Assembly (NCBI GenBank): GCA_956465555.1 | Contig: OY101115.1 | Span: forward strand, 3,720,001 to 3,784,000 | DNA: 64,000 bases | Origin: Nitzschia sp. pyKryTriq1 | Lineage: Eukaryota; Bacillariophyta; Bacillariophyceae; Bacillariales; Bacillariaceae | Reading direction: 5' to 3' | In this document: positions 1 through 64,000 of the stretch, one piece after another | How the letters are laid out: each line of letters starts with the position of its first letter | Position numbering within the stretch: the first letter of the stretch is position 1 | Program-made: the position numbers and the translations under genes | Notes under the pieces: generated by a model | Seen by the model: only the letters and a program-made list of their open reading frames with translations | Told to the model about the DNA's origin: nothing | The model's database searches: none

Positions 1-931
1 ACCATGCATCGACAACTCTCTAAACTGACACTGTTGATCCATGAAATATATGCCCCCATGAGGGCGTTGGCGAAGACTGTTGTCGCTACAATTTAATTTT
101 CCTAAATAATGTACGAGACGTGCCCGGATCTGGCACATTATTATTTGTCAGGCACGTCCGAGCGAGGCACCGCATGAAACGGGCCTTTCAAATTGTTGGG
201 CCATTTTCATTTTATGCCCAGTCCGACGGAGGGCTATAAACCATTGGCGATGCAGAAAAGCGACGTACGGCCATCCGGGCAAAGGAGCCCACTGCGCAAT
301 TGTTTCAATTGCATCGTTCAATTCAAATATCTAACAGTCATAGTTAGGTAATAAGGGGGTCATCTCAACAATCGAGTAAAGTTATACAAGAGTTACGCGC
401 GGCACTGTTACAATAGTGTGCAGTACAATAAATTATGACACAAAGCAATCCTCATGCGTCATGCGCAAGGTGCGTTGTTCCTTACACCTGGCGATTCAAT
501 TAGCGAGTGTGATGCGCGTTCGTGCAATCGGCGAGCGTCTGGCGGGGCTGGCTGACTGGTTGACGACTCACTCGAAACACTCCCCTCATCATGAAGCTAT
601 TTCATATTTGAAAATCTCAAAAGCATCGTCTCGATACTCTTTCATTGGTGTTGGGCGACCATTCCGTCGTCACCGAAATAGCCCTTCCTGGCTTCTTTCG
701 CAAGCTCGTCGCTACAAGATTCTTTCTTTTTTTCTTTTTTGCCGATTGCGGCAATGACTGGTGGTCTTGACCACACAGATTCAACAAAGCTTGATCATTT
801 CGACTCTGGTAGAGATGTTCAAATGGAGAATCTAAATACCTTCGCAGTGACGCTCTTGGGAATCGCCTGTCACGGCGCCTTCGTCCCTCTCTGCTCAGCA
901 AGCTATTGAAGCTTGCTGAGCTTTCACTAGA
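1..931. other. gene-free left edge
   Basis: No convincing gene is visible. Open frames here are short and have low-complexity or repeat-driven composition. A perfect 12-bp inverted repeat lies at 893-921, just before the 298-bp tandem repeats. A pyrimidine run lies near 721-740. Confidence 0.6.
893..921. repeat. perfect 12-bp inverted repeat (hairpin)
   Basis: GCTCAGCAAGCT at 893-904 pairs exactly with AGCTTGCTGAGC at 910-921 around a 5-nt loop. It stands 10 bp before the first copy of the 298-bp tandem repeat, so it may mark an element edge or a replication or structure signal. Function unknown. Confidence 0.85.
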
Positions 932-1527
932 AGTAGAAAGATATGCTAGAGCAGCAGCAGGTATTAGCATGATTGTGTAGTAGAGATAGTAGAGAAAAGA
1001 AGAAAAATGAAAATCTTGAGCAATGATGATAAGGAAAGTGATGACGAGTGATACTCTTCTGCATTTTAGATATCTCAGACCTCTCAAGTTTTTTGGGGGA
1101 TGAGAACTCAAGTTCGCCTCTGATGGAGAGGAAGATTCCCTACTACTGACAGACTGACGGACTGGACCCAGATCTGGTGCCCACGTACCCAGACTCGGAT
1201 CTGGGTACGACAATTTCGGGAATGACCCAAGTAGAAAGATATGCTAGAGCAGCAGCAGGTATTAGCATGATTGTGTAGTAGAGATAGTAGAGAAAAGAAG
1301 AAAAATGAAAATCTTGAGCAATGATGATAAGGAAAGTGATGACGAGTGATACTCTTCTACATTTTAGATATCTCAGACCTCTCAAGTTTTTTGGGGGATG
1401 AGAACTCAAGTTCGCCTCTGATGGAGAGGAAGATTCCCTACTACTGACAGACTGACGGACTGGACCCAGATCTGGTGCCCACGTACCCAGACTCGGATCT
1501 GGGTACGACAATTTCGGGAATGACCCA
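932..1527. repeat. tandem duplication, 2 x 298 bp
   Basis: Copy 1 is 932-1229 and copy 2 is 1230-1527, abutting without a spacer. By eye I find one difference (G versus A near the middle, about 1060 versus 1358). Each copy ends with a near-palindrome built on GTACCCAG...CTGGGTAC. No gene is credible in either copy. The near-identity points to a recent duplication or to homogenisation. It lies 314 bp upstream of the GH125 start codon, so it may be part of that promoter. Confidence 0.92.
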
Positions 1528-1841
1528 CTGAAGAATGCTCCTCCTCCTCCTCCTCCTACCGGTACAGTACATACCGTACCGGTACCGCCGTACTGTATCC
1601 TCCCATCCTCCGGAGACGGAGAGACGCGTCGTCGTCACAATAATTTCTCTCGCTATCTCAACTCTACTCTACTCTCTCTCTGTCGAGAGAGAGACAGCTC
1701 AACCGTTTTTAAGTAAAGCACTGAATATTCACAACAAGACGTTCGGACGTTCAAAGTTCTGTAAACAGCTCACTACACGTAGTCGTAGAATTCTCCACCG
1801 TTCCGGCAGACTTTAAAAAGTGCAACACGAGTACATAGAAG

Positions 1842-3684
1842 ATGCCTTCTTTGAAGAACGAGACGATGTCTGCCCTACAGTACACGCAGTATTCGGCCAA
1901 TAAAGATGACAACATGAAATTCGTCTCGTCAAGACGAGAAAGGAAGTTTCGCCGCTACGACATTATCTTGTTTGTGGTAGCGACTGGATTCTTCTTCTTT
2001 GCCTCGATGGTTGCTGTGAATGTCATAGCGTTGATGAAATCGGAAGATGATCACCATACTGATCACCCGCATTATCTTCGCGTGCCTATTACTAGTAATG
2101 CATTGGTGGCGGAAACAAAGAACAACGCAGAAAGAGCCTTGCCCCCTGCATCAGTTTGGGCGACAAGGGAACTGCAAGATCTTTCATTTGGCTCCACGTC
2201 TATTTCTTCGTGGTTGACGGCAAACGAAACAGCAAAGGCGATGGAATTATGTGGAAAATTTTTATATTCTACTATTGAACGAGCTATACATCTGAAGAAT
2301 ATGGGGCAAGATGTTTTCGTCGCAACCGGAGATATCGACTCAATGTGGATCCGTGATTCTGTCGTGCAGATGACGATCTATTTGAAGCACGTTGGTACTC
2401 ACCCATGGTTGCGTTTCATCATCGACGGAACCATTCGTCGAAATGCATTCAACATCTTGCAGGATCCATATGCTAATGCCTACGAGCACAACTGGAAAGA
2501 TCCTGCCACGCTCGAACTCAAAGATCAAGTCATTGGTCGAGGTGGCTTTGTTGCGACCAGGAACTATGAGCTCGACAGCGGTGCCTATTTCTTCATCCTT
2601 CTCTATGACTACTACCTTTCGAACGCCATCTACAGGCCAGAAGTCGTCCTGCAGGAGCCATTGATTTTTGAGGCTGTAATGACGATGATCAACACTTGGA
2701 TTGTCGAACAACGACATGATGAGTTATCACCCTACCGATATTTTGAACTTCCGAACGAAGGAAAGGGTAGCCCAACTGGTTTTACTGGAATGACTTGGTC
2801 TGGATTTCGTCCCTCTGACGATGCCTGCAGGTACGGGTATCTTATTCCAGCCAATATACACGCAGCCGCGGCCCTTCAAAGGATTCTCATCCTCAACGAT
2901 CGAATTTGGCAGAGCGAGGATTTGTCGCTGAAGGCATCAAAACTATTGAAAGAGATAGAGAATGGAATCAATACATTTGGAATTGTAAAGGACAAGTTAG
3001 GTGCACCAATGTACGCCTACGAAGTAGATGGCCTGGGCAAAACGCTCCAGAATTTTGATGATGCAAATATTCCAAGCCTACTATCAATTCCGCTTCTTGG
3101 TTGGGATGGATACAATAAGGAGGTTTACGATAACACTCGAAAGTATCTCCTGTCACAATCTAACCAATGGTACTTCGAAGGAAAAATATTTAAAGGTATC
3201 GGGTCACCGCATACTCCGTATTCTTATATCTGGCCCATGGCCATGGTGGTCCAAGGATTGACCGAGGAGGGGCCCGATCTTGCGGAGAAATTGGCTTTTC
3301 AAATGCGCCAGCTTCTCAAATCTGCGACGAACGACGCCATGCACGAAAGCGTGAACAAAGAAGGTTCCGAATCGTTCACGAGGGCATGGTTCGAGTGGGT
3401 GAGTGCACAGTCAAGAAACAAAGCTCCGCGAATGCCGAAAACCTCACCTGTTGTGTTACTGTACGGTACCGGTATAGGCCAACGCACTTTTCGTAGTTTA
3501 TGTTGAAACTGTACTGGGTGCAACTTGTACCCCCATCGCTAGCGACTTGCATAGGTCAAATAGGGTCGCAGAGATTCGGAAAAAGAGTGGAGAGCCCCCT
3601 TACAAATTCTACCAGCATAGTGCAAACGACCCTTGGAATCCACTGTACTACCAGGATGTTGAAGCTTCAGTTCACTTTGACTAA
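1842..3684 (+). CDS. GH125 family exo-alpha-1,6-mannosidase-like glycosidase, type II membrane protein
   Basis: Exons 1842-3398 and 3478-3684, intron of 79 bp, 587 residues. Residues about 36-65 form one hydrophobic segment after a basic stretch (RRERKFRRYD), which suggests a type II Golgi or ER anchor. The luminal part carries the GH125 signature GDIDSMWIRDS near residue 165, and FTRAWFEW directly before the intron. Exon 2 restores the expected continuation (ANALFVVYVETVLG) when the acceptor at 3477 is used; reading through the intron instead gives a non-homologous tail. GH125 enzymes remove alpha-1,6-linked mannose, so a role in trimming glycans or glycoproteins is inferred. The 3' splice acceptor sits inside a GTACCGGTAC-type word. 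The stop is only 2 bp from the stop of the convergent neighbour. Confidence 0.9.
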
Positions 3685-3686
3685 GA

Positions 3687-5544: not shown

Positions 5545-6637
<1,093 letters not shown>

Positions 6638-8487
6638 TTTGAAAGTTACTGTAAGTTAATGACTTGAATTGCAAACAACCTTAGTGCAAGTTTTATGTCT
6701 CCGGATTCCGAGCAGGACGAATAAGAAGGTAAGGTGATGGTGCTTCCCGCGCTTTGCATACCTGGTACCGGTATGGATCTACCGGTAGAACTCATTCTAC
6801 CGGTACTGTGGTACCTGTACTGTACCGGTACCCGTACCGGTAGTTTACTACCAGTACACACTGCTTGTACGGGAAAGCGGGCCTTCGTATTTTTCGTCCG
6901 AGTACATTTTAGTTCGTACTGTACTTGTACTGTACTGGCTGGACGTAGCGACTCCGTGCCTACAGTAGCTCGGCATCTTGGCTCGAGAACAACCGCAGCG
7001 AGAACGTAAAAAAAGTTCGGTTCGACCCCGCAGCCCGCGGCGGCCCGGCGCGGCCGTCGTCGCCCGCCCGATTTCAAGTCTTGCCGCTTGCAGCCGCCGG
7101 CCGCGCGGAATACTGTACGGCTTCTCTGCCTTCCTTTCCGATACTGTACTGTAGTGAACTCGTGCAGTTTGTACCAGGTACTGGTTCTGTACTGCACCTG
7201 TACTGTACCGGTCTCACACCGGTACAGTACCTGGTACCTGGTACAGCAGTATGTACTTCGTTAGAGGGAGAGTTGGGCCGGTGGCGCGACCGGCGCGATG
7301 ACCCAAATGACCGCCTTCTTGTCGAACTTTTCTTTCCCCGTTGTAGTGCTTGTTGGGAAGTGTTGTATCGTGTTGTTACACGTGGAAGATAATTCGATCG
7401 TGGGAATATTGAGTCATGGCAAGTATTCGAAGATTGTCGAAGACAGTCCGAGACCATCCGAGAACCCGTCCGAACAAATAATGTCGCACGTCTGAAAGAG
7501 AATACGAGAATGTAGTATATGAAGATAGAGAATAATAGCTCATAATATAAAAGTTACGAACAACTGAAGTATTGTCAAAGTACCGAAACACTAGTAGGAT
7601 AATCCAACACGTTTATAAACGTATGGCCTGGGATTTTGCCTAAGTGTTTGTGAAGAGAACGAACTCTCTGTTTAATAATTGTTGACAACAACCTAGACAG
7701 TTGAAGACCTGTTGACTAGCGGTCTTAGCGCAGAGGAAGCGTGTGGTGGGTTTGGACGAGTTGTTGAGACTCCAAAGACAAACCAATAAAGAATGTAGTC
7801 CTACGTAAGGAACCGTCTAAAAGTTGTGATTGCATTCTACTCCACAATCCACGACATCGTCGGTCGCTCATGCACCCAAGATGTTGGATGGCCATGACCA
7901 ACTATCAATGGCTTGGAGGTCATGTCGTCCTCGTGTTCGTATCCCATGACAGACTGTTCAGTCACTAATGATCAGTCTTGGATTCTTGTATGCATAATCC
8001 CACACGTCGCGGTTGTTTTCGTGATGAATAGAAGAATATTCCGTCGGCGGCTCGCGGCACAAACGGCCAGACCACGGGGTTTCCCAGTACCGTAGAATGT
8101 ACGCAGGTCAATCATCACCAATTATCGCGGACAAAGCACGGGAAAATAACTGGTGTGTGCCACCTTAATCGTCCTGCTCCAGTGCCGCGGTTATGTTATG
8201 GCTGTCTTGGGCGTGACATTTTCTACCCGTCAGGAAGAATCACCATCTTGCATACCGTGCCCTACAGGTATCCTCGACGACGCCCATTGATTATTCTTCT
8301 TCCTCGGCCGAGGCAAGAAGAGCGAGACGCATCATCGGTAGAAGACTACTCGTACTGGAGTACGAGTAGGCGAGTTTCATTGTAACGCCGGCAGCGTCGA
8401 CGACTCCTCGGAACCAAGAGGAGGAGGAGACGGTTCGATTGCAATCGAGTGGTGGAGCAATTTCCGACAAAGAGCGACTACCGAAGA
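6638..8487. other. 1.85-kb gene-free spacer rich in GTAC words
   Basis: Divergent spacer between 14-3-3 (minus) and the WW-cyclin gene (plus). It carries two dense clusters of overlapping GTAC/GGTACC/ACCGGT words (about 6764-6935 and 7138-7252) flanking a very GC-rich patch (7026-7070 and 7081-7108). Open frames here are created by these words and look non-coding. From 7400 to 8400 I see only AT-richer unique sequence. Confidence 0.6.
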
Positions 8488-12758: not shown

Positions 12759-13115
12759 TTAGTATGATCCACCTCGCAGCTGCAGGACCATGTGAATAGT
12801 AGCACCAGCACCAATATTGTATGACTCCAATGTCTTATCGTCGGCAAGCTGCTTCCCCGAGTGGATCAGTCGGATTTGGTCCACTTGAATACCCTCCTTT
12901 TCTTGCAGAGCTTGTTTCACTGCCAGCACTTGGTTTTCCGGCTCGAAATTGAAGGCCTGCTTACGGCCGGTCAGGGTCTTGATAAAGATCTGTCGAGAAA
13001 CGAAAATGCAAAGCATGAAGGGGGGGAGATGTGAGCGGTGTTCTTGCCACGATGGAAACATGAAGGAGAAGAGATGGGCCATCATATCGGCAGTCTGCAT
13101 GCAGCTTACCTGCAT
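12759..13115 (-). CDS. divergent ubiquitin / NEDD8-like modifier
   Basis: Two exons: 13110-13115 encodes only Met-Gln, and 12759-12989 the rest; intron of 120 bp; 78 residues. The start [10 protein letters not shown] is ubiquitin-like and the C-terminus is LQLRGGSY, so the conjugation-competent Gly-Gly would need removal of two residues. Ile44 and the patch residues Leu8, His68 and Val70 are present. Lys48 is kept, but Lys11, Lys29 and Lys63 are not. Residue 72, which E1 enzymes use to distinguish ubiquitin (Arg) from NEDD8/Rub1 (usually Ala), is Gln. It is therefore not ordinary ubiquitin; it may be the NEDD8 counterpart or a separate modifier. It is a single unit, not polyubiquitin or a ribosomal fusion. 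Confidence 0.88.
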
Positions 13116-14684
13116 GGTGAAAAGATATCGAATTTCCGACGGAGTCAATCGCCTGGGAGATCAGGTGCGGGGTCTTGCAATGGCTGAAAGTGGTCTCCCG
13201 AGTATTGCTTTTGTGTTTTGCCACCTTTCACAAGAGAAGCAGTCGTCTGTAAAGCTTTTGGTGCTTGGTGGTTGGTCGTTGGCCGGTACAAGTACGGTAC
13301 CGGTACCGGTATTAATATTATGGTCGGTGCGGCCCACCGCCGCCAGCGCGCAGCGGGTTTCGATCATTTCATCATTGTCGAGGCAAGACCGTAGTAGCCT
13401 TGAATCACACACAGGACAAAAATAGGACAGGCTACGCTGATTTGTGTAGACCTGGTACAAAGGAGCATGAAGTTGAGTCTTCCCGACGGGTACCAGGTAC
13501 CCAAAAGACCTTTCCACAGACAAACCGATAGCGAGAGTTGTCGTTTCTTGAACCATAAGATTCCGTACGAAGGTCATCATCATCCGAGTCAAAGTCTACT
13601 AAGCCCTTCTTTCGCGATCTTGTAGCTGCGATTCAAGCAGTTTTTCTTGGATTTTGTCATCGACGACATGGCATCCCTGAAGATCACTTCGGTCGCTCCG
13701 GAAGTTCCGTTTCCTTGGTTCCCTCTTGCAGGTCCCGTTGGTGCTGGTGCCGGTCCACCGAGTTTTCCTTGGATCTGGATGCACGCTCTTTCCACTTTTT
13801 CCTCGTCGGGGAGCTCGTGAGTGACGCTGGTGATGATTTTTGCAGAGACCATCCACAACCATTTCATAAGTCACTTGACTTGACGATTGACTTCACAACA
13901 TTGTGCGGTTTTTCATCTCGATACTGAAAGCGCTTGGTCAGCGGAATAGGGGCATATAGGGTTTTGTTGGAATTTCCAAACAGCATCCAGTTCTCAAGGC
14001 AACAAGCGATCCGGACACAATGTACTACTGGCACGAGGCCATGAAACAAGACGATCGCCAGGAATTCAAAGCAGCCATGCAAAAGGAGTGGGACGACCAG
14101 CTACAGAACGGGAACTTCACCGTAATCCCTAAAAACTCTAAGGGTTTCGAAGATACTTACAGTTCATCAAAAATCCACCTATTTACTACGCCCAAATAGT
14201 AGGCTCATAACCCACTATTTCTACAGGGAGGTCTCCATGCCATGCCGCCCATGCATGTGCGACGACGCGTGCCTGCTTCGCACCAGACAGGCGAACACGG
14301 TGAAATATTTAGCCAACGGCAAGCACGATCCGCCGGGCTTCCGTATGTACAGTACGAGTAATATTCCTCTAAGAATTAGTCGTAGATTCCGCCGCCTGAT
14401 CGTGATTTCGCTACCGGCACGCGTGTTTCTTCCGTTAGAAATATGCCCTTTTTAAGGCCCAATGCGCAAGCATCACCTCTGATGCGCTGACCGAGCAGAA
14501 TAAACTGCCTGCATTCCGCCTCACAAAACGACTGCTGAAACGAGGCGGCAAGCTAAAAAAATAAAACAAGTGCGTTGTACAACTACCGGTACTACAAGTA
14601 CTGTACCGCACTTGTACATACATATTACGTAGCGAGACGCGAGACGCCGACGCGACGAACTTTCCGGAAACAACACCACCGACG
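13116..14684. other. spacer holding a retrotransposon scrap and unexplained frames
   Basis: Contains GTAC-word clusters (13285-13312, 13487-13502, 14586-14618) and the copia fragment at 13999-14150. A minus-strand frame at 13589-13867 has moderately coding-like composition (PDEEKVERACIQIQGKL) but no recognisable domain, and I do not call it a gene. The last 100 bp form the promoter of the DUF1769-like gene. Confidence 0.5.
13999..14150 (+). mobile_element. Ty1/copia pol fragment (fossil)
   Basis: About 50 codons match the conserved start of the copia-type reverse transcriptase domain (tryptophan followed by EAM, then EF..AM..EW). No LTRs or other parts are recognisable nearby. It is a small, broken relic; age cannot be judged from so short a piece. 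Confidence 0.75.
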
Positions 14685-15869
14685 ATGTCTCCTCCCTCTA
14701 ACGGTAGTAGCGAGACCTACTCCTCCGCTAGGACCATTTGCTGTAGCTTGAGAACAAAGCGTCCATTAGTTAGAGCGAAATCGTTGTTGACGGGCACAGC
14801 AAAAGAAATGACGAGTGCTGAGACAGTGAGCTTCGGGGCTTGTGCCAGCGTTCCCGCTGTACAGACGCCTGCGGACGCTTTTGATGGGCAACACAAGGCT
14901 TTGAAGAAAGTTTCCATCGTAGATTGTGCCACAGCAACTGAAATCATTCCCAACTCGAGACCTATGCAGCTCGACAATGATTGTTTTACTGGGCAGGTCA
15001 TGCTGTTGGTCAGGACTCCTGACGTCGACAGTGCCAAGGAACCCGTGCCCACTGGCGAAACTCCGGCGCGCATCTCGAAATACTTCAAGGGATACAAGAG
15101 ACGCTTTGAGTTCCAATTCCAGATCAAGCTGAAGAAGGTACCAACGGGTCCGTTGTTCTTGGGTTGTGAAGTCGAAGAGATGATCAAAATCAACCGATTC
15201 ACGAAGTCCATGGCTAGTTTCTTACTCGCCATGATTCGTCGAATCAATCCTGGGTTTCATTATTCCTGGGGAATCAAGAAGGATGAAACGGACCCTGAAA
15301 TTCTCAAGTCAGGTAACTGGGAAGCACAGCACTTGTCTTTTCCGGTGGAAGCTAGCATGGACCGAGTTGTCATTACTAAACCGGGGGAAACACCGCCCGA
15401 ACTCGGACACCCTCTACATGAGACTAATGAGTCTGTCAAGAGACGCCGGAAAATGGGAGCAGGTTCTATCGACTGGAACACGGAGGATACTTACACCTTA
15501 TGCTTATGGAGCGCCTATTGCGACTGGATCAAGTGGAAGAGCATCAACGTTCCCGGATGTCGCCCTTTTTCGCTTTGTGCTGCGCTAGGCGAGCAACCCG
15601 TTTACTTGAGTGTGTATGAACTTTCGGACATATCCGCTCAGGACTACAAGAAGAAGAAACCCCCTCACGTGCGTAAGGATCTTCGTGTATATACGCGTTT
15701 GGAATTCACCAACCACGAATTCACAGTAGGTGGCATTGCGCCGCGCTTTCAAAGTGACAAGTTCGTGCAAGGAAAGTACGACGAGTCCCTTGCTGGAGAA
15801 ACGGATTCCGAAATGGGTTCGGAGTCCGATGGAGTGGAGCCAGAGGTTAAGATGACAACTGTGGCATAG
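14685..15869 (+). CDS. DUF1769-like protein of unknown function
   Basis: Single exon, 394 residues. The N-terminal about 100 residues are Ser/Thr/Ala-rich and may be disordered. The conserved core starts at YFKGYKRRFEFQFQIKLKK (about residue 130), followed by GPLFLGCEVEE, INRFTKSMASFLLAMIRR, a central GNWEAQHLSFP segment, WSAYCDWIKWK, and RLEFTNHEFTVGG near the C-terminus. This arrangement (an FQ-x-Q-x-K strand, then G-x-LF-x-G-x-E) resembles the DUF1769 family known from fungi and algae; assignment is from memory of the family pattern. No signal peptide or membrane segment. The tail is acidic. Confidence 0.7.
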   Translation: MSPPSNGSSETYSSARTICCSLRTKRPLVRAKSLLTGTAKEMTSAETVSFGACASVPAVQTPADAFDGQHKALKKVSIVDCATATEIIPNSRPMQLDNDCFTGQVMLLVRTPDVDSAKEPVPTGETPARISKYFKGYKRRFEFQFQIKLKKVPTGPLFLGCEVEEMIKINRFTKSMASFLLAMIRRINPGFHYSWGIKKDETDPEILKSGNWEAQHLSFPVEASMDRVVITKPGETPPELGHPLHETNESVKRRRKMGAGSIDWNTEDTYTLCLWSAYCDWIKWKSINVPGCRPFSLCAALGEQPVYLSVYELSDISAQDYKKKKPPHVRKDLRVYTRLEFTNHEFTVGGIAPRFQSDKFVQGKYDESLAGETDSEMGSESDGVEPEVKMTTVA

Positions 15870-16099: not shown

Positions 16100-17266
16100 C
16101 TATTTCTTCGGATTCCGTTTCCGTAAAGATTCGGCCCACTCCAATTCTTTTTTTGATAGCTCCCGATAGCTCCCAGCCTTTAAATCGTCTAACTGAATAA
16201 CTCCCAGCCGCTCTCGTTTCAAACCAATGACAGGAAAGCCAGAGTTTGCAAGTATCCTTCGGACCATGCGATGTTTGCCTTCTTCCACTACCAATCGCAC
16301 TTCGCTGAGCTCCTTGGCATCCCTGAAGAACAGATAGCCTTTTTCCTCCAATTTCTCGAGATCGTACTCGGGTGGCAGATTTTTCATAATTTCTTCAACC
16401 AGCGGTTTTACTTGCTCCGACGGAATCTGCTTTGCCTCTATTAGATCTGCAGGAAATGCACCCATGGCCGTCGACACTCCTTCAGCCAATGTTTGCCTCA
16501 GCTCTTCTTCGTTCACGGAGCCCGCAACTAGGGCTACATATTCTTTTTGAATTCCGTTACTTGGGTGCAGCAGTGTTTGGGTCAGAGTTCCATCGGAGCT
16601 GAACAAGAGTAGGCCGCTCGTGTCGTAGTCTAATCTTCCCACTGGATGCATATTGTCAATGAAATCGAGATCGCTTAAATTATGTCGGCCTTTTCCGTCG
16701 TTCATGACGCTCAAAACCCACTTGGGTTTGTGGTAGACGCGTAGTAGAGGTGGCGGTAGAGGGACTTGAATCTTATTATCGATCCAGATATCCGCGTTCA
16801 TGGAAATCTTCTCGGAGGGCCCCAAAACTGGAAACGCTTCTCCGTCGCCAAACTTTTGAAAGACGCGTCGTTGTTTTAGAATATCAAAGCATTCAGATCG
16901 ACTTCCCCATCCCCGATTGGAGAGTACACGATCGGCTCGGAACGTCTTGCCCGTCGCTGGTGGCATTCTCTTTTTCTTCGTTTTGGAGGTTGCGGCACCG
17001 TCTTTCTTTTGCTGATTGATTTTATTGTCACCAGACGGACTCGTGGAAGCTGACAAGCGACAGGAGGTATGAAATGACTGACGCGGTGGGCAGGATCTAG
17101 AACTGCATGTTTCTATACAGCGCAGCAGCACAGAGCCAGAACATCGACGGGTTGCTGCCGCCGCCGAAAGCATGGTCGGTGGCTCGAAGGCCCAAGTTTT
17201 TACAAAACACAGACACTCGAGTGCAATCCAAAGAAAAAAGGCAAGACAGTTCTCGCTGTATCTCAT
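16100..17266 (-). CDS. RsuA/RluB-type rRNA pseudouridine synthase, probably plastid-targeted
   Basis: Single exon, 388 residues from the ATG at 17266; the open frame extends further upstream only to a GTG. Residues about 109-135 (FRADRVLSNRGWGSRSECFDIL) look like an S4 RNA-binding element. The catalytic motif GRLDYDTSG is at 210-218 with Asp213. VEEGKHRMVRRILA and GLKRERLG are the later family motifs. The family isomerises a uridine in large or small rRNA. The N-terminus is hydrophobic and breaks at WA-FEPP (Ala26/Phe27), a diatom-type bipartite plastid presequence. A second Met at residue 32 begins an Arg/Ser/Ala-rich stretch that could serve as a mitochondrial presequence, so dual targeting is possible. 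Confidence 0.92.
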   Translation of the reverse strand: MRYSENCLAFFLWIALECLCFVKTWAFEPPTMLSAAAATRRCSGSVLLRCIETCSSRSCPPRQSFHTSCRLSASTSPSGDNKINQQKKDGAATSKTKKKRMPPATGKTFRADRVLSNRGWGSRSECFDILKQRRVFQKFGDGEAFPVLGPSEKISMNADIWIDNKIQVPLPPPLLRVYHKPKWVLSVMNDGKGRHNLSDLDFIDNMHPVGRLDYDTSGLLLFSSDGTLTQTLLHPSNGIQKEYVALVAGSVNEEELRQTLAEGVSTAMGAFPADLIEAKQIPSEQVKPLVEEIMKNLPPEYDLEKLEEKGYLFFRDAKELSEVRLVVEEGKHRMVRRILANSGFPVIGLKRERLGVIQLDDLKAGSYRELSKKELEWAESLRKRNPKK

Positions 17267-18554
17267 CGATGCGCTTCCAAGCTGGTACGAGACCCAACAC
17301 CCAACGTAAATAACAAGATAGAGTTGGCAGAGAGGAGGATGTTTGATGTGTCCCTCCTCGACCACATCAAAATACCAAAAGACCAACCCAAAACAAAAGA
17401 TCGCGGATCTCGGCGTCGTGTTTCTTCGACGTTTTGTGCGGTCATCGGTCACTCCATAGCTTTCGTCTGGGTGTCGTCCGGCTTATTAAGTTACACGTGG
17501 CAGTTTGTTTTGGGCACACAAACAATACGGTACATACCGGTAGCGTACACACGACAGATTGTCACGTACGACTGACGGTAATTCGGTCGAGTTAATCGAC
17601 AGATTGTGCCGAATGAAAACAAGCCGCTAAAAATAGGCGTACAACCAGTGATTCGGTGTACTACTAGGGACCTACTCTACTAATACCTGTAGGTTATAAT
17701 TATTTATCCCAGCATGCCCCTGGGCTGCCGGTCGTCTGGTTTCCAACAGTTTGGAATAGTACCCTTATATGGAGGTGGTATGTACCTGTTATGGGCCTTT
17801 TGGCAACCTACGGTGTGAACGGAACAAATGACACTACTGTCCAGCACAGTTACAAGGTCAAGTTCAAGGATGACTTTCCTTGAGCTTTGCTTGCTTCATC
17901 ATCTTCTTCTTGTTTTGATCCACTGCAATAAACACTCCTGCAGCGGCCATATCTTTCCTTCACAAGTTTTTCATCATGACCATGCAAATGATTAGGAGCA
18001 GATGATGAGGAGCTAGTGAGGATAGGTCTGAGGAAATCTACGTATATACTGTAATAATATCAATAAAATAATATGTAGCTCAGAAATCCACTAGCCATGT
18101 TGTAGTTGTTATCCCTTCTAACATTCTTTTAGTTTCAACACTCCTCTAGCTACGAGTAGGAATAGTTGGTAGAGTACAGCCAGAGGTCATGATTGCAATG
18201 AGAAGTGGCGATGGGTCATTTTTGCATTGAGAAGCTTGGGGGCTGATATCTTTCTTTGCTGCCATGTTTCCAATTCAACAAGTACTAATTTTTTTGGCCA
18301 ACAGCAGTTCCATGAGTTCGCGTTTCAAGAAGGAAGCAAGATTAAAGCCAGAGTCAACTCAAGAAATATGCCCAATGTCCCAATGACCTTTGATGAATAC
18401 CGAACCCGAATCCTACGACGAATCCGAACCTTCGTAACGAAAGAAATAACAGAACTTCGCCCACGACGAGGCTACCACCGCTGCTCACAAAATAATCGTT
18501 CCCGCTCAACACGTCTAGTAGATCCAGCTATCAGTACCGACAATAAGATATCCG
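17267..18554. other. 1.3-kb divergent spacer
   Basis: Lies between the pseudouridine synthase (minus) and the prolyl hydroxylase (plus). A GTAC-word patch lies near 17526-17570. An open frame that overlaps the hydroxylase start (ATG near 18369, stop 18616) is noted as a possible upstream ORF. Nothing else is recognised. Confidence 0.5.
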
Positions 18555-23843: not shown

Positions 23844-26431
<2,588 letters not shown>

Positions 26432-35666: not shown

Positions 35667-35704
<38 letters not shown>

Positions 35705-35741
35705 GTAAAGTACCACAAATAAGCTCTAGCTAGAGTGTAAC
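34990..35741. other. divergent promoter between DUF3598-like and CHY/RING genes
   Basis: Holds a 19-bp direct repeat pair (GATGGTTGTGGTCACTTGG near 34995-35042), GTAC words at 35196-35215 and 35560-35580, and (CAA)13 at 35666-35704 in the presumed 5' UTR of the E3 ligase. No gene supported. Confidence 0.55.
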
Positions 35742-45993: not shown

Positions 45994-46760
45994 GGTGATG
46001 TCTTTTTCGGAATTTATGAGTAGTAGACGGATTGAGAATGAAAATCTTTGAGGAGCCAAGTAGGGAATATACAAAAGTCTTACTCCCACGTTCTTGGTAG
46101 TTCGGTGGGGGTGTTCTTGATGATTCATTCTTCTTGATGATTGATTCCTTCTTCGCACATTCCTTTTTATTCTTCATTCACACAGCTCTCTTTTGAGCGA
46201 TCGTGCGCGATTAGACTTTCACCTTTTTGCATACTGTACAGTACCAGGTACCAGGTGTACGTACAGACAGTGAAAGCGCACAACATGAGAGCGCAGTCTG
46301 TCGTCCGTTCGCCAGCCGAAAGCCGGTTTGAATGAAGCCGAGCCATTCGACTCCTTCGACTATGAGTGAGTGATGATTCGATGATTCTTCTTCTTCGCGA
46401 TGATGATGATGCCATCGATCTCAAATAATCTCAACACTCAACAACAACAAAAAACAAAAAGTTCGACGTCTTCCAATTCAGAAACACCCTGTGAAAAGAT
46501 GATTGATGATTCGAAGTCTTCTCTCGGATTACGATGATAAGAATGTCGCTTACTGTACTGGTACCAGGTACAGTACGAGTACACGTACACGTACACGTAC
46601 CGTCAGTGACGAGAAGTGAGCGAGAGGCAAGAAAGTAGCTTGCTTCTTCTTCTCGTGATTCGACGTCCGATCGTCATCTCTTCCGCCGTCCTTCACCCTT
46701 CACATCACAATTCAATAACAACATAACGAAGCCGCACTACACCACAAAATCAAAATTAAA
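45994..46760. other. divergent promoter, contains duplicated non-coding block A
   Basis: Block A (46001-46352) shares three ordered segments with 49334-49600. GTAC words at 46230-46265 and 46555-46602, including an (ACGTAC)n-like run. No gene supported. Confidence 0.6.
46001..46352 (+). repeat. dispersed non-coding duplicate, copy A
   Basis: Three collinear matches to copy B: TCTTTTTCGGAATTTATGAG plus a following TAGACG-ATTGAGAATG (46001-46040), ATCGTGCGCGATTAG (about 46200-46214), and GTCGTCCGTTCGCC with downstream CGGTTTG...GCCGA..CATTCGACT (about 46300-46352). It has no coding potential. It may be a decayed small element or a duplicated promoter. Confidence 0.75.
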
Positions 46761-49257
46761 ATGATAGTGCAGCGAGTCAGTACTAGTGCTGCCGTTGCCT
46801 TTTGTCGCCCATCGACTTTGCTCCGACAAGCAGCACATAAGCATCAGCATCTTGCCCGAAGAAGCAGAAGCAATCTCGCGACATCCACATTGCTACCATC
46901 ACTACTGAGACCATCTTCTTCCACGACGGCTCATTATTTGATGCGACCAGGAGATTATTCGGTGACAACAACTCGAGTTGTATCCTCTTCTACTGCTACA
47001 CATACCGCTACTGCTCTGGCGTCGTCTTCGCCCTGGACGACGATGACATCTATGTCTAGTATCATTACCAGTCCTGGTGGTATTTTCACTTCGGTACTCG
47101 GAATTATCTCTTTGGTTGTCTACTTCAAGTACAAGGGAGCGATTCAACGACGTCTCAAACAAGTCAAGGAAGAATCGTGGTTGTTTGGTGCCGGTGTTAC
47201 CATGACGAGAGAAGAAATATCATCTTCTACTTCTAATGATTCACCCGCAGCGCTCTTTTCGCATCTCGAGTTGCTACAAATCAATCCTACGTTTCAAAAA
47301 CAATATGAAGCAGAAGACTGGAAATTGATTAGTTTGGGAGACTATTTGGCAACCTTGCGTCCCAAGCAATTGCCCAAGAGATTCTCGACGCAGGATTTGC
47401 CCAAATTGGTGCAGCAAGAATTGGAAGCGGGCTTGACGGCTGGACTATTGAAAGCATTGGGACCTCATTTGGGACGAGCCCTTCTTCCTGCCGTCGGAAC
47501 GGGATTCATTCAAGGACAGGCCTCTAGCCTCGCATCCAAACTGGCGACGCGATGGATGATGAAGAAGCCGTCGCAGGATGAATCATCCACTACGACGATG
47601 GGACTCTCTTCCAACCAAGATCGAGCCGGACTGCCAATTTCTATTATGAGTGTCTTGGCATTGTCCGAAACGAATGCAAAACTCACTAGTGGAAACGGTA
47701 ATGACTGTGATAATGAGAAGGATGGCAGCAGCAGCAGAAAGAATGATTCGGCAGGAGCTTCGGATGACGAATTGCTTCCGGGTGCCAACTTATCGGCCAT
47801 GGACAAAATGAAGCAAGGCGAAAATGTCAACGGGCCCTCGTTTGCGGATACGGACATGGTTCCAAACAAGGGATTCGTACTTGACGCGGACTTTCACAAG
47901 ACGGTTCGAAAAATGGAAACGAAAATGAAAGAAGAAGGACATTGTGCTGATCACCAGTCTACCGAACTGCAAACTGCTCAAGCTCAAGTGCGGGAACAAG
48001 AAGAAGGAGGAGATGACCAAGCAAGGAAGTTCGACGATGATGACTCGTGCGCGGCTACTAATGCCGTTAAATACGATCCCAATGATCGCAAGATGGGAGA
48101 GCCAGTACCCATCAATCCAAGGCTCTTTCCGGATCTACATTTGGGATATGGCGATGCGATTTCGTCCCATACCAAACGTCAAGTCTTGCAAATGCGCCTC
48201 CTCGCCGTATTGTTGAACCGTTTGGGAGCTAACTATCATCGATTGGCGCATCCGACTGTCGGTGATCCCTTGTTCACTATGAAGTTGACCAAGGACGGTC
48301 CCACTATCACGAAACCAACAGAACTCGTTCAAGGATTGATCGACATGGGACATCAGATCAAGGTCGTTCCAACATCTCGAATGACCTCTTTCGGACTAGG
48401 AATGTGTGTCAAAGAATCAGATGGATCGTGGTCCAATATTCCACTCGCCGTCTTTTTAGAGAGTGGATACGAAGACATGGATGGCAATATGGCTCCCGTC
48501 ATGATGCCTCACAGTGGTGTGCGATTCATTTTGGAAAAGGGACCCCTTGTAGACCATGATGGAGAAGAATACGACGACCATGATCCCTCGAAATGTACAA
48601 ACCCATTGATCATACAACATTTCATTGGAATCGAAGGTAGGACAATCTGAACAACGGCAACGGATGTATGTCACAATCAATCATCGACAGTTCTATTTAC
48701 TAACAATATATTTTCATCCAACAACGACAGGTTTCTGCGGATGGAAGTCGGATCAAAATCCGGAAGTTCCGTTCAATGAAAATGTGGAATCGGGAAAGGC
48801 ATTGACTGATGCCAAGGATTTAGTACGAGCCGTGCGATTGGCAGGGTTGTATGGTACACTTTTGAATGGATTGGCGACCGATCTTGAATTGCCCTTTGGA
48901 GGTTATGGGGTTACAGCCGTCTGCAATGATTCGGCCGCCATCATCCAGCAGTGCATGTACGGGGAATCCTACATCTTTCCGTTGACATCAATAGGACGGT
49001 ACCTACAGCGAACTGTTCGGTACGGTCATTCAACGGCTGAACGACTGCAAACTATGCCCAACACGGTCGACGAAGTGAACGACTTGCGAGCTCTGGTCCA
49101 AGCCATGAAGGATCTGCCTTCGGATATAAATGCGACTCCCGGCAATGCTAGTAACGCGGCTCGTCGACTGCTGTCTACGATGCAGCCGAAACGTCCATTG
49201 AAACTCATGGATGATTCGAAACGAATAATGGAAAGCATCATGCAGGAAACGCAGTAG
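46761..49257 (+). CDS. large protein of unknown function, probably mitochondrial membrane-anchored
   Basis: Exons 46761-48636 and 48731-49257, intron of 94 bp (phase 1, rejoining G-FCGWKSDQ), 800 residues. The N-terminal about 100 residues are rich in Arg, Ser, Thr and Ala with almost no acidic residues, a mitochondrial-type presequence. One hydrophobic segment (GGIFTSVLGIISLVVYF, about 105-122) follows. A region with GLLKALGPHLGRALLPAVGTGF precedes a long acidic, disordered linker (about 300-440). A conserved-looking globular part begins at PINPRLFPDLHLGYGDA and ends in exon 2 with LPFGGYGVTAVCNDSAAI and YLQRTVRYG. No family recognised. Confidence 0.8.
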
Positions 49258-54367: not shown

Positions 54368-54922
54368 ATTCAAAGTCTAATAATGAAAAGGCTGGATTGA
54401 GATAGCGGGTAGATGTAGGCAGTAGTTTCAATGTTGACAGCCGGAACAATCTGTGGATGACAGATCGCGTAGAGAAGATGACACCAACAACCAACAATAA
54501 GCTCATGCATGCTCTCGAAAATCATCATGACGGATGACGGCGGTTTCGTGGAAAAACGTACGGTACCATACTTGTACGAGTACAGTAAAACTCCTCATAA
54601 AACGTCGTCGCAGTGAAAATTGTCCGCCCGCCATCCGGCAAGACGTTTAGTCGGCGTAGTCCTCAAGAGTCAAAAAAGCCCAATACTCGTACTGCCGTAC
54701 ATACCGATATTACAGTACAGTATCTCGATCTCGCCACATAGTACATAGGCGCGGGCGGTGGCCAGGCGGAATGGATCTTTCCACTTTCCACTGAAAAAAT
54801 GCGTCTCTCATTTGAATTTCTCATTTCAGCAAGCAGCAAACTCATTATTTGTTCAAGCTACAATAATAATATCTCGCATCCTTACAACGACATCCCACGT
54901 CCCACTTGCCACTACCAGTACT
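54368..54922. other. divergent promoter Tim17-like / MDR
   Basis: GTAC words at 54557-54592 and 54690-54720. The MDR frame extends upstream of 54923 but without an ATG in a plausible context, so this is treated as promoter and 5' UTR. Confidence 0.5.
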
Positions 54923-56239: not shown

Positions 56240-56279
56240 CAAGATTGCCATTCAAACCAAGGCAAGAGAGACTACCTAG
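56200..56279. repeat. 40-bp tandem duplication across a stop codon
   Basis: Copy 1 (56200-56239) is the last 13 codons and stop of the MDR gene; copy 2 (56240-56279) is in the 3' UTR with two differences. It begins CAAGATTG and ends CCTAG. The duplication left the encoded protein unchanged because the stop is in copy 1. Confidence 0.95.
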
Positions 56280-57643: not shown

Positions 57644-58419
57644 GTTGCACTATTGAAAACTGAGGTGTAATGTAAGATGATAGCTTGAATGTTGTACCGG
57701 TACCAATAGTGAATCAAGGAAGAAAGATTTGCATCGGTATGGTACTTCGTACCGGTACTGTACTGGTACCGGTACAAGTATTGTACCACTACCGCACGCC
57801 AGTGATGCAGTAATCACTGCGGGAGAGTGAGGAAAAGGCGCAGCGCATCGTCCGCCCGCAAAACGGCACGGCGCCAATGATCAAGTCGAAGAGGTCAACT
57901 TGTTTTTCTTATGCCCTCGTCACTCGCGCGCCAAAAATGAATTCGGTCTGTCTGTCACCACCAAATAGGCTCATGTCGTCTGTCCTTCAATACGAAAGGA
58001 TACCACAAAAGGAACGAATAGACGTCAAGAGTCGTCAAGAAGTGTCACGCATGCACACGTCAGCTCTCACGCACGTACGAACGATTTTTCACACAACTTG
58101 AACTTTTGGCGGCTTCCGTTCGTTTTCAATGCATCAATCGAACATGTGCATGGTTGGTGGAGGTTGTCGTCGTCGTCGTGCATGCATGAGAAAAAAGAAA
58201 CGAGAGGAGAGGAGATGAGGCGAGCGAAAGGCCGAGACCCGAAAGACAAGACGACGACGGACACACCATCTCTGCCAACGTGTTTATACTTTTTGAGAAA
58301 TTTTCTTGCTGGCGGCCCACTGACTGTTCGTACTGCACCTGTAGTCTCATACTTCGTAGTACAGTACTCTCTATTCTCGATATCATTATTATTGTTTGAT
58401 ACCTACTCCTGTTACCACC
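57644..58419. other. divergent promoter RFC3 / plastid repeat protein
   Basis: A dense GTAC-word cluster at 57693-57785 (three ACCGGTAC within 90 bp) next to the RFC3 start. Otherwise unique sequence; no gene supported. Confidence 0.55.
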
Positions 58420-59220: not shown

Positions 59221-60323
59221 ATAAACGAACTTGGACGGCGGCTATTAGCCGTGATGGACGAAGTTCGAGTTCCTGCTTGAATATTTGTTTCCAGGCTTGA
59301 GAGATGGAAAGGGAGACACATATACTATAAGACAACATGCCCATTTGGGGGCGCTCCCATTCCAACGCACCACAACCCCACCCTTTGCTCATGCTCGATC
59401 ATCATCACCTGAATTCATCCAAGTCTTCTGTAACACTAGTAGCATGGAATCTTTATGGAAAGGAAAGGAGGGCTTTTAAACAGCTCAGACCAGAGGACCA
59501 GTTAGCTAGTCGGTACGAATTGCCACTAGTCCTAGCTAGTAGGCTACTAGTCTCTATAGGCGTACCGGTAGCTGTATTGATATAAGTAGCACACTCACTG
59601 TCTGTACGTACAAGTACGTACATTACAATCATCCCTGCACGTGTACACTCTTCTCTACTAGCTCTAGAGAGTAGAGAGAGATTACTGCAGAGATCATCAT
59701 GAAATCCAGCACCACAGAACACGCCTGATCCCAATCGAAATCCACGGATCAGGACGACGATATCGATTGTCACGGAAACACAACCGAGACGACGACGACT
59801 GACTAGACTCATCGCATCACGCAGCTGGACTTATGCGACTATTCCGTCGGACCACTGACGCACTGACCGACCGACTGAAGTCGAGCGGGCTGGCGCGCTG
59901 ATGGAAAACGTATCTTTGTTTGATCGTTTCCAAGAAGAAAAAAGCAACCAACTCTAGTTATTCGGCTTTCGTCTCTCTTCAGCAACAGCATTGGTTTTCT
60001 CACAATTCTAGCATTTACAAAATCAAATAGCATTGTCACTTTCAATTCCAAAAAAAATATTCTAGCTTACTACTATCTATCCGTTCATCTTTGGACGATA
60101 CATCATCAGAGCCCGACCAAGCCATATTCCTACTAGGAAAATTATCTAGATACAGTTAGATGACACGTCATCTAAGTAAAATCTATCGAGAAAGCCGGCT
60201 CGTCAAAAAGCAGGTAGATGTACCTACTAGATGTAGATCTATTAAAGGTCTGCAGTACTGTACTTCGTAGCGTACACGTGCGTACAGTAGGTGCCTTCGG
60301 CAAACAAGAGGAGGAGGAGGGAG
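59221..60323. other. 1.1-kb gene-free spacer
   Basis: Unique AT-richer sequence with scattered GTAC words (59562-59575, 59602-59625, 60255-60290) and no credible gene. Its right end provides the 5-bp target-site duplicate of the LTR element. Confidence 0.55.
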
Positions 60324-61786
60324 TGCAGTGTCCTGTCGACGTCATCGGTCCGTCCGTCCCTCCCTCGACGTCATCCTGACACTGCGTGACGTCATAGCGT
60401 TCCTACTAGTCGTGACACCTCCGTCAATGACTAATGCATTTCATCTAGAGGCGATCCTTCCTTCACAAACTTCACAAGACATCCAAGATCGCCATCACCA
60501 CTACATTTATGATAAGTCGTTCGTGCCCCTGACACTTCACGACTACTTTACGATTACAAAAGATTCATCTCTCAAAACACCCCAGAAAAATAGTCTCACT
60601 TCTTTTAATTTCATCTACTTTAAATCACGAATTGAATCCCGTAACTACGAGTCGTTGCATTCTGATCAGAAGTTCGACAATATCGTACACCCTTTCGAAC
60701 GACCAATACTACTAACTACTTTGCCTACGAGAAGTCGCCGCTATGTTGCGTGCAGGTAACAATCGTCGAGGAAACCGTGTTCCTCGAGCCCAAGGAGTCC
60801 TCCCCTTCAAAAAGGATTTCTCCCCCAAATCTCTCGACATGGTCAAACATTCCGTCACTCGTACCGTCAACGAGGAGACCGAGAAGACCACAATCGAAGT
60901 CCCAAAGCTCCGCGTGGAGGCTACCAACATGGAATATCTACACTTCATCAACTCGTTCGAGAAGGCTCGACGAGTCATGTCGTGGACTACTGGTCCCCGA
61001 CTTTTTAACAAATTTCAAATGCATCTTGAAGACGACCACGAGACCAAGTGGGACGACATCACCACCGGTCTCAACGAGACGGTTGCCAACTTCGATCAAG
61101 CGATCAGTGAGTTCACTTCGCAACGCTTTCAGCCGGACGACTACCACGTCCATAAACCAATTCCGATTATTGCCCAGTATAACCAATTCCGCGCCCGCCG
61201 ACAAGCACGCATCGACGAAAACGCGCGATGCGAAAATCTTCGCCGCCGCTTCAAAGACTACGAGCTGGGCGACGAAGTACTGGTCCTCTCCTACAAACCC
61301 GATAAGCTCGAACCTCGAGCCACCGGCCCCTTTGTCATTGCCCAAGTCCATGTCAACGGCACCGTCACTATTCAACGCAACGCCCATGTTTTTCAGCGCA
61401 TTAACATCCGGCGCGTCAAGCCTTACCTTCATTAATCTTTGGAGGCAGGGTGCAGTGTCCTGTCGACGTCATCGGTCCGTCCGTCCCTCCCTCGACGTCA
61501 TCCTGACACTGCGTGACGTCATAGCGTTCCTACTAGTCGTGACACCTCCGTCAATGACTAATGCATTTCATCTAGAGGCGATCCTTCCTTCACAAACTTC
61601 ACAAGACATCCAAGATCGCCATCACCACTACATTTATGATAAGTCGTTCGTGCCCCTGACACTTCACGACTACTTTACGATTACAAAAGATTCATCTCTC
61701 AAAACACCCCAGAAAAATAGTCTCACTTCTTTTAATTTCATCTACTTTAAATCACGAATTGAATCCCGTAACTACGAGTCGTTGCA
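60324..61786 (+). mobile_element. non-autonomous Ty3/gypsy-type LTR retrotransposon, structurally whole-looking, young
   Basis: Two 336-bp LTRs (60324-60659 and 61451-61786) start TG and end CA and look identical by eye. A 5-bp target-site duplication GGGAG flanks the element (60319-60323 and 61787-61791). A purine-rich tract (GGAGGCAGGG) precedes the 3' LTR. The 791-bp interior has one open frame (60743-61435), whose first part looks gag-like and whose last about 60 residues look like the tail of a Ty3/gypsy integrase. Protease, reverse transcriptase and RNase H are not represented, so it would depend on a relative. Identical LTRs imply a very recent insertion. Each LTR has three GACGTCA boxes. 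Confidence 0.93.
60338..60394. promoter_or_regulatory. three GACGTCA (CRE/bZIP-type) boxes in the 5' LTR
   Basis: GACGTCA at 60338-60344 and 60367-60373, and the full palindrome TGACGTCA at 60387-60394; repeated in the 3' LTR at 61465-61471, 61494-61500 and 61514-61521. Diatom bZIP factors are known to bind TGACGT-type CO2/cAMP response elements. A role here is inferred. Confidence 0.7.
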
Positions 61787-62132: not shown

Positions 62133-63658
62133 ATGAAGTTTCTCTCAAGCGCTGTCCTACTGCTTCTTGGGCCCTTCCAGATCAGCGCCTTTACGCCTGT
62201 GGCGGCTCCGAACACTGTCGGACGAAGTTCTGTGCGAATGTCGGCGAGCGCTGCGACGGCGGAAACTTACACGGTGACCCCTATCAAAAGTTTGGATGGC
62301 ACGGTGACATTGCCAGGATCAAAATCCTTGAGTAATCGCTGCCTGCTATTGGCTGCGTTGAGCGACGGAAACACCAAAGTTGACAACTTGCTGGAGAGTG
62401 ATGACATTCGCTACATGCTCGAGGCCTTGGACCAGATGAAAGTTCCAGTTGAAAGACACTCGGCCGAATCGGTAACCGTCACTGGTCAAAATGGACCTAT
62501 CAATTCTCCAACTGGTGACGAAGTTTGTGAGCTCTTTCTTGGCAATGCTGGTACCGCCATGCGACCTTTGGCTGCTGCTCTTTGTATGGGAAAGGGCAAG
62601 TTTGTTTTGGATGGGGTTCCTCGAATGCGAGAGCGTCCGATTGCTGACTTGATCGATGGTCTCCAGCAGCTGGGAGCGGATGTTACTTGTGTAAAGGAGA
62701 CTGGATGTCCTCCAGTTACTATCAATGCCAATGGACTTGGTGGTGGAAAGGTAGGACGAGAAAATCATTCTGCAACCTAATTTGATGTGAGGAACGTTTC
62801 ATTGACCAGTTTGTTTTTGATCATCGGCAGGCTTCTATCAGTGGAAAAATGTCGTCACAATTTCTATCTTCGCTTTTGATGGCATCGCCTGTTGTAGATG
62901 GTGATGTAACGATTGAGATCAAGGACGAGCTGATCTCGGCGCCATACGTTGCGCTGACTATTGGATTGATGAAGAAGTTTGGTGTTAATGTTGAGATCGA
63001 AGGCGACATGGATGGCCAACCCAAGTTTCAAATCGCTGGATCTGAAAAGTACAAAAGCCCAGGTTCTATTTTGGTGGAGGGAGATGCCAGTTCGGCGAGT
63101 TATTTCATTGCCGGCGCGGCTATTACCGGTGGAACAATCACGGTGCGAGGATGTGGGTCGGAAAGTGTTCAGGGGGATGTTGCCTTTGCTGATGTGATGG
63201 AGCAAATGGGTGCCACAATCACTTGGGCCCCCGAGAGTATCACAGTCACTCGCGATCCCTCTGTTAGGCTAAAGGGCGTAGATGTCGACTGCGGCAAAAT
63301 CCCAGACGCAGCGATGACTCTCGCTGTAGCCGCGCTTTTTGCCGAGGGACCAACGACAATCCGAAACGTGTACTCGTGGCGTCTCAAGGAAACAGAGCGA
63401 ATGAAGGCCATCGTAGCTGAATGCACTAAACTTGGTGCCACAGTAGAAGAATTCGAGGACTATTGCATAATCCACCCACCAAAGGACAACAAAATCAACG
63501 ACAATGTGCTAATTGAAACATACGACGACCATCGAATGGCGATGACCTTCAGCCTTGCGGCATGTGGGGGTGTCAATGTTATCATCAACGATCCTGGATG
63601 CACAGCCAAAACATTCCCCACATACTTCGACATGCTGGAGGGTATTGCCACGCACTAA
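62133..63658 (+). CDS. EPSP synthase (5-enolpyruvylshikimate-3-phosphate synthase), plastid
   Basis: Exons 62133-62750 and 62831-63658, intron of 80 bp, 481 residues. The signal peptide is followed by Phe20 (FQISA-FTP), a plastid presequence. The mature enzyme is complete: PGSKSLSNR (shikimate-3-phosphate site), [13 protein letters not shown] (PEP site; Gly and Pro as in ordinary class I enzymes), [39 protein letters not shown] and YDDHRMAM. It joins shikimate-3-phosphate and PEP in aromatic amino-acid synthesis. In many heterokonts shikimate enzymes are plastid-located; here the gene stands alone rather than in a pentafunctional AROM fusion. Confidence 0.97.
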
Positions 63659-63729
63659 TTCATTAGCCAATTAAAAGCTGAAAAGGGTTAAGTTTATGTT
63701 ACACGTATGGATATTACGGTGCAATCGCA

Positions 63730-64000
63730 TTAGGTTTGCCTGAAGTTAAGTTTGGCAAGCGCCAAGAGGGTCACCGTCCGAGAAACGATCAACAAGGCAA
63801 ACAAATAGAGGATATTCCATGGGATGTTTTCCGGGATGAAGCTACCGCCGAAGCTAGCAAACACCCACTGAGATGCAGTCCCGACGCAGACTTCGTCGCT
63901 TGGAAGCTGATCGCAACCCAGGAACTGCCAGAATGGTGTATTTGGCGAAGCAATGATAGGAGTGTCATCGTTCTCGAATTGTGACACCAACAGGCCCTGA
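63730..64000 (-). CDS. ABCG-type (White/BCRP) half-transporter, C-terminal end, runs off the window
   Basis: Only the last 89 or so codons are in the window; the frame is open to the right edge (QGLLVSQFEN...). CVGTASQWVFASFGGSFIPENIPWN is not itself diagnostic, but the final hydrophobic helix and the tail LYLFALLIVSRTVTLLALAKLNFRQT fit the C-terminal transmembrane segment and short tail of ABCG transporters. It converges on EPSPS with 71 bp between stop codons. Confidence 0.72.
   Translation of the reverse strand, partial: QGLLVSQFENDDTPIIASPNTPFWQFLGCDQLPSDEVCVGTASQWVFASFGGSFIPENIPWNILYLFALLIVSRTVTLLALAKLNFRQT

Follow-up and report, generated by a model that had tools for sequence, protein, structure and literature searches.

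The DNA analysed here (the window, 64,000 nucleotides of contig OY101115.1 of the diatom Nitzschia sp. pyKryTriq1) belongs to a 40.65-Mb assembly of 20 contigs and carries, between its predicted genes, dense clusters of the word GTAC, which are the subject of this text. Using a small hidden Markov model (HMM) gene finder, trained for the purpose on the window and on five 10-kb stretches of other contigs, we predicted 33 genes in the window. Fifteen of the 20 that were scanned as proteins or exons gave a Pfam match at E ≤ 0.001 (one of the 15 below the curated cut-off), and the genes are of an ordinary kind: 14-3-3, RFC subunit, GH125 mannosidase, flippase, EPSP synthase.

GTAC occurred 354 times in the window against 142 expected at first order (2.5-fold, the top ratio among the 256 tetramers) and 142.7 ± 10.5 in dinucleotide shuffles. 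With a cluster defined as at least three GTAC at steps of at most 25 bp, the window contained 28 clusters, whereas 100 dinucleotide shuffles averaged 0.31 and never exceeded 3, and all 28 fell in predicted non-coding DNA (Table 1). Start-to-start distances between GTAC cores peaked at 5 and 6 bp, and across the whole genome GTACNGTACNGTAC was found 1,134 times versus 43 for the reversed word. A first-pass annotation of the window had listed ten intervals as examples of such runs; every one of them contains the words and lies in a predicted non-coding spacer, although the interval 44408-44430 holds two GTAC only and no TACN1-2GTA. The same annotation had described GTAC as very scarce in exons, which is true of clusters, absent from exons altogether, but not of single words, of which the 41.6 kb of window exons contain 116.

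Table 1 Clusters of TAC/GTA words in the window, with the predicted spacers that hold them (W, A or T; N, any base; strand of genes in brackets).
Feature	Position	Location	Content
TAC/GTA cluster	1558-1595	upstream of GH125 mannosidase-like gene (1842-3506, +)	5 GTAC, 3 TACN1-2GTA, 1 TACCGGTA
Large cluster	6764-6935	divergent spacer 6306-8487, 14-3-3 gene (-) / WW-domain gene (+)	14 GTAC, 12 TACN1-2GTA, 5 TACCGGTA
Second cluster of the same spacer	7138-7256	divergent spacer 6306-8487	TACC-W-GGTA forms among it
Cluster	13285-13312	divergent spacer 13101-14807	
Cluster	14577-14617	divergent spacer 13101-14807, near gene at 14808	
Cluster	17530-17569	divergent spacer 16967-18575	
Cluster	22731-22766	divergent spacer 22518-23336	
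Two more clusters	23009-23222	divergent spacer 22518-23336	
Two clusters	25812-25970	divergent spacer 25671-26431	8 TACN1-2GTA within 25896-25970
Four clusters	27030-27614	tandem spacer upstream of flippase-like gene at 28430	
Cluster	35197-35216	divergent spacer 34990-35741	
Cluster	40184-40206	divergent spacer 39752-40419	
Two clusters	42262-42352	divergent spacer 42031-42532	
Cluster	44407-44430	tandem spacer 43871-44507	TACC-W-GGTA forms
Cluster	46236-46264	divergent spacer 45898-46940	
Cluster	46555-46602	divergent spacer 45898-46940	short run of identical 6-bp units
Two clusters	54558-54718	divergent spacer 54368-54922	
Cluster	57693-57786	divergent spacer 57644-58419, RFC-subunit gene (-) / gene at 58420 (+)	
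Two clusters	59604-60285	spacer 59221-60742	

GTAC is merely the shared edge of longer TAC/GTA inverted repeats, namely TAC-W-GTA, TACCGGTA and TACC-W-GGTA. When all inverted triplets at gaps of 0-6 bp were ranked in 34 kb of spacers, TAC-nn-GTA came first (125 vs 15.2 expected); TACnGTA reached 71 and TACGTA 19 against the same expectation, so that gap 0 was near chance. We repeated the key counts on an 82-kb set of non-overlapping non-coding DNA unselected for the motif, from which 15 pattern-chosen loci were excluded, as were six of the 30 loci sampled for heat shock factor (HSF) domains (L017, L026, L030, L032, L038 and L044, duplicate or overlapping). Counts of chains and of outer flanks come from a 106.8-kb set alone, which includes eight loci picked for GTACNGTACNGTAC and some overlapping HSF loci.

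Among 264 sites with a 2-bp gap in the 82-kb set, the centre was CG in 91, GA/TC in 41, CA/TG in 37, AA/TT in 33 and TA in 28, with AC/GT (n = 21), AG/CT (n = 9), AT (n = 3), CC/GG (n = 1) and GC (n = 0) making up the rarer classes; 142 of these 264 centres are non-palindromic. In the same DNA, 91 of 108 ACCGGT words fell within TACCGGTA, TAC-W-GTA outnumbered TAC-S-GTA at gap 1 (119 vs 33), and at gap 3 a CAG/CTG centre accounted for 34 of 81 sites, with TACC-W-GGTA at 34 and TACC-S-GGTA at 1. By raw count the commonest site is therefore the 7-bp TACWGTA (119 vs 91 for TACCGGTA), while TACCGGTA leads in excess over expectation. Genome-wide, TACCGGTA was found 15,515 times versus 839 for its reversed-word control and TACTAGTA 6,568 versus 2,360, part of the latter being TAG triplet repeats; TACATGTA, with an AT centre (692 vs 696), and TACGCGTA (345 vs 453) were not enriched over their reversed controls. 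Just outside sites in the 106.8-kb set, G is favoured and T disfavoured, with G at.45 vs.29, or vs.34 on a stricter background. Triplet repeats of the form (TAG)n/(TAC)n are over-represented in the window and in the sampled spacers and inflate some TAC/GTA counts. The GTAC core proposed by the first-pass annotation is thus ruled out as the unit, because the rules for centre and spacing extend beyond it; what recurs is an inverted repeat, TAC...GTA, whose centre is constrained.

We then looked at where TACN1-2GTA lies, with exons, introns and spacers classed by our HMM gene models. Divergent spacers held 120 in 15.1 kb (7.9/kb; 7.1 in shuffled sequence), long tandem spacers 47 in 10.8 kb (shuffled, 5.5) and exons 18 in 73.1 kb (shuffled, 7.9); TACCGGTA followed suit, with 25 in the divergent and 11 in the long tandem spacers vs 3 in 73 kb of exon. 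A site was present in 14 of 15 divergent but only 6 of 18 convergent spacers (spacer-level permutation, p = 0.0044). The two density comparisons by which the first-pass annotation had proposed to judge a promoter role, spacers against exons after composition correction and divergent against convergent spacers, did not refute such a role within the limits of these gene models: in each, the first-named class was the richer in sites. In 54 complete predicted genes, exon counts were those of a synonymous-codon shuffle, both for TACN1-2GTA (18 vs 17.8) and for GTAC (179 vs 178.6 ± 10.5), indicating neutrality, with neither enrichment nor purging of the words in exons. No point-mutational drive towards GTAC showed in this codon shuffle, and we set that reading aside. 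Isolated GTAC (none other within 25 bp) was about as dense in divergent spacers (2.31/kb) as in exons (2.27/kb); the remaining non-coding classes (introns, convergent spacers and long tandem spacers), at 3.99-4.43/kb, show a weaker general non-coding excess.

Relative to genes, site density in the random set was 2.3-3.9/kb over the last 100 bp ahead of the ATG, as against 7.8-9.2/kb at distances of 150 to 500 bp, and 45 of 55 upstream regions had a site within 600 bp. Sites in tandem spacers lie mid-spacer, away from both genes, and in divergent spacers their positions form two humps. Sites thus lie, as a rule, between genes and at some distance from coding sequence; the tendency is most marked in divergent spacers and weaker in the other classes.

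Near misses of the two main words are rare. In the 82-kb set, the one-mismatch excess relative to intact words was 0.15 for TACCGGTA and 0.18 for TACWGTA, near background, whereas eight simple-repeat words counted in that sequence gave 1.2-2.4. A recent segmental duplication between contigs C1 and C3, of which two parts were sampled (98.2-99.7% identical), allowed sites to be compared between copies. The copies hold 74 and 76 sites (plus three inside a large insertion), 68 of them unchanged; indels touch four and five of the remainder, and substitutions two and three. Mutation does contribute to the arrays, which change by small indels. Within arrays, neighbouring spacers differ in 14 of 26 cases at gap 2 and in 8 of 20 at gap 1, and the run of identical units at 46555-46602 suggests local duplication. 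The largest cluster (window 6700-7300) is single copy besides three short array-like matches of 83-84% identity, which speaks against a dispersed mobile element as the bearer of the clusters. Some clusters do sit in repeats, as with the array of locus L002, in a repeat common to L027, L033, L045 and the window.

Taken together, the arrangement of these words makes it probable that each cluster is an array of sites bound by a symmetric (dimeric) DNA-binding protein, of which there may be one or several. The putative site would consist of two inverted TAC or TACC half-sites with a modest outer preference for G, in three spacings: TAC-W-GTA (7 bp), TACCGGTA or a looser TAC-NN-GTA with mostly pyrimidine-purine, AA or GA-type centres (8 bp), and TACC-W-GGTA (9 bp). 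The protein reading them may act on transcription, presumably as a broadly used promoter factor, since the sites stand before ordinary housekeeping genes. We favour binding sites because of the centre rules at three spacings, for which copying alone is insufficient, the exon counts at codon-shuffle level and the preference for divergent spacers; of the possibilities raised in the first-pass annotation, binding sites for a factor is thus the best supported. To our knowledge, little is established of diatom promoter grammar; in this genome a single class of words, defined by a half-site, three spacings and a set of allowed centres, marks 45 of 55 upstream regions of the random set. Since its arrays change by small indels, they may also exemplify binding sites that arise and vanish quickly.

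A number of observations weigh against this interpretation. Sites are also enriched in convergent spacers (13 in 4.3 kb, 3.0/kb; shuffled, 2.5) and in introns (5 in 2.0 kb; shuffled, 1.1), and the spacer and exon classes themselves depend on our own gene models. At the HSF loci a site within 600 bp is present in no more than 19 of 33 upstream regions, site density rises later, and the stretch 200-700 bp downstream of genes is rich in sites as well; a reading restricted to promoters is weakened accordingly. As a standard for near misses, simple repeats are imperfect, given that array edges generate them; for the whole TACNNGTA family in the 106.8-kb set the near-miss ratio is 0.41, or ~0.8 if counted as single words, although most of these near misses are TAGNNGTA (236 vs 48.5), an excess we attribute to TAG triplet repeats and without which the ratio is ~0.2. 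The scarcity of near misses suits sites that are kept, but also a turnover that outpaces decay. Neighbouring spacers in arrays are identical in 12 of 26 cases at gap 2 (3.8 shuffled) and 12 of 20 at gap 1 (8.4 shuffled), overlapping triples of one array being scored separately, so arrays grow partly by local duplication. Between the recent duplicates, substituted columns are no rarer in the motif (3 of 492) than in other non-coding DNA (24 of 8,253), numbers too small to speak for or against selection, and differences of 3, 5, 6 and 7 bp lie in or beside TAC/GTA/TAG arrays.

An alternative, which we hold to be unlikely, is that the arrays are mainly a product of mutation: degenerate microsatellite-like tracts of 5-6 bp units and TAC/TAG triplets, which would lengthen and shorten by slippage and microhomology deletion and be tolerated in untranscribed spacers. 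The excess of identical neighbouring spacers (30 of 69 listed pairs), the small array differences between duplicates and the adjoining (TAG)n/(TAC)n repeats all agree with it. Slippage that copies units does not by itself yield inverted repeats with W or otherwise restricted centres at three spacings, synonymous codon choice shows no drift to GTAC, and the two main words have few one-mismatch forms, whereas simple repeats have many. The mutational process entertained by the first-pass annotation is supported in part, in that arrays alter by small indels.

Mutation of a more specific kind would come from Tc1/mariner-type elements, whose excision footprints have the form TAC[A/T]GTA; each visit would leave TA-C(N)G-TA, and repeated visits would make 5- and 6-bp arrays. 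The agreement of TAC[A/T]GTA with the footprint of TA-targeting elements, the excess of words whose inner part starts with C and ends in G (TA-x3-TA, 225 vs 25; TA-x4-TA, 347 vs 24; 106.8-kb set, partly motif-chosen) and one 5-bp TACAG difference at TA between duplicates speak for this origin. We nevertheless hold it to be quite improbable: the base outside arrays is not neutral on either background, more than half of the 8-bp sites are not palindromic at the centre, as footprints left by identical ends would be, the largest cluster is no dispersed element, DDE_3 transposase matches number two in the genome (other mariner families were not searched), and TACATGTA, given as a Tc1 footprint in PMC3520976, is at chance here. 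A chromatin or modification signal, through nucleosome exclusion or symmetric methylation, would suit sites that are sparse beside genes and dense between them, and the main centres, CG or CWG, place cytosines in a symmetric context. Other centres are common, however, and the outer TAC/GTA requirement goes unexplained; we regard this reading as improbable. Copper-response-type elements read by SBP-like proteins, which the first-pass annotation had raised by analogy with green algae, share the GTAC core and nothing else, and we give them next to no credence: the true unit is TAC...GTA with a specified centre, and the genome gave 0 SBP-domain matches, although control genomes likewise gave none.

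As to which protein might read the sites, their geometry prompts a guess at a diverged member of the HSF or bZIP family. The genome contains 29 bZIP matches (PF00170) and, with 150 of 213 candidates scored, at least 153 HSF DNA-binding domain matches, the latter partly in close groups, for example at C6:106-132 kb. In a pattern search of 30 loci, the HSF recognition helices (18 distinct domains) read SF[Q/R/L]RQL in 17 cases and SWQRQL in one, with RQLN in 16; nothing firm on the reader of TAC/GTA follows from them. A bolder proposal, which we regard as doubtful, is that a greatly expanded transcription factor family, most plausibly HSF-like, has shifted from GAA/TTC to TAC/GTA, the arrays being a general promoter architecture of most genes and the equivalent, in a stramenopile, of the sites of general regulatory factors in yeast.

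Several further features were noted. EPSP synthase was predicted as two genes, 62133-62780 and 62879-63658, which matched adjoining stretches of a single Pfam model; the 98 bp between them are probably an intron. A direct, long terminal repeat (LTR)-like repeat of ~340 bp lies at 60322-60662 and 61450-61786, with relatives 76-98% identical in loci L039, L045 and L032, and the gene predicted between its two copies (60743-61435) had no Pfam match. Two identical 26-bp near-palindromes, CGTACCCAGACTCGGATCTGGGTACG, stand 272 bp apart at 1184-1209 and 1482-1507. TTAA, the target word of piggyBac-type elements, is depleted in the window (81 vs 212 expected). The recent segmental duplication at L052-L055 (C1:4290001-4310000, C3:3150501-3170500) is 99.1-99.7% identical, and its C3 copy carries a 1,564-bp insertion, absent from C1, flanked by TTAA and with ends GGTGGATATGT/ACATATCCACC, which we take to be piggyBac-like by its target site. 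The genome gave eight silicon-transporter matches, which, like its HSF matches, are in keeping with a diatom.

Among known systems, the sites of yeast general regulatory factors such as Reb1 are short, frequent promoter words before ordinary genes. The diatom sites are likewise short, frequent and in front of ordinary genes; we know of no Reb1-type sites arranged as inverted-repeat arrays. Repeated palindromes of type GTACNGTACCGGTAC occur in a G+C-rich contig of a contractile-tail phage, IMGVR_UViG_3300038393_002326 (L119, L059, L087), where 10 of 17 TACN1-2GTA in L119 lie outside the open reading frames that cover 97% of it, in the manner of operator-like repeats; their resemblance to the diatom word is presumably convergent. 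Heat shock elements share with the diatom sites 3-bp inverted half-sites at gaps of 0-2 bp, a likeness of geometry alone, with gap 0 near chance in the diatom and a half-site of TAC/GTA, not TTC/GAA. The HSFs of Phytophthora infestans jointly bind half-sites with 0, 1 or 2 bp between them and still bind TTC (PMC11267843). In the 34 kb of spacers, canonical heat shock pairs were not enriched (GAAnnTTC 12, TTCnnGAA 17 vs 14.3 expected), and we reject canonical heat shock elements as the identity of the clusters. The geometry is tempting because oomycete HSFs accept gaps of 0-2 bp and GAA/TTC is unenriched in the diatom despite its large HSF family.

The closest parallels come from oomycete promoters. 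The word TACATGTA, known as Phytophthora motif-1 or M93, is very abundant upstream of genes and has been suggested as a homodimer site, with a KN/Irx homeodomain proposed as its reader (PMC3520976). It is a TAC..GTA inverted repeat like the diatom sites, and differs in its AT centre, which is without enrichment in the diatom; the homeodomain suggestion finds no support for the diatom sites. Among the matches listed in the open-access literature (no preprints), none was a diatom report of these words, nor an earlier report of their dominance in a diatom, of the spacing grammar or of the array form. The word itself is known in stramenopiles (PMC3597505): TACCGGTA is M94, a high-confidence promoter motif of P. 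infestans, one of 103 stage-associated motifs and weaker than its twin M93 in hyphal promoters; the passages on it name no protein that binds it. The diatom differs in the sheer number of its TACCGGTA words, in having TACATGTA at chance and in dense arrays with 7- and 9-bp variants. Still, an identical 8-bp palindrome is over-represented in promoters of P. infestans and upstream of predicted genes in the diatom, and this letter-for-letter match of the top diatom word with a motif of a distant stramenopile helps to make the question of which protein might read it directly testable.

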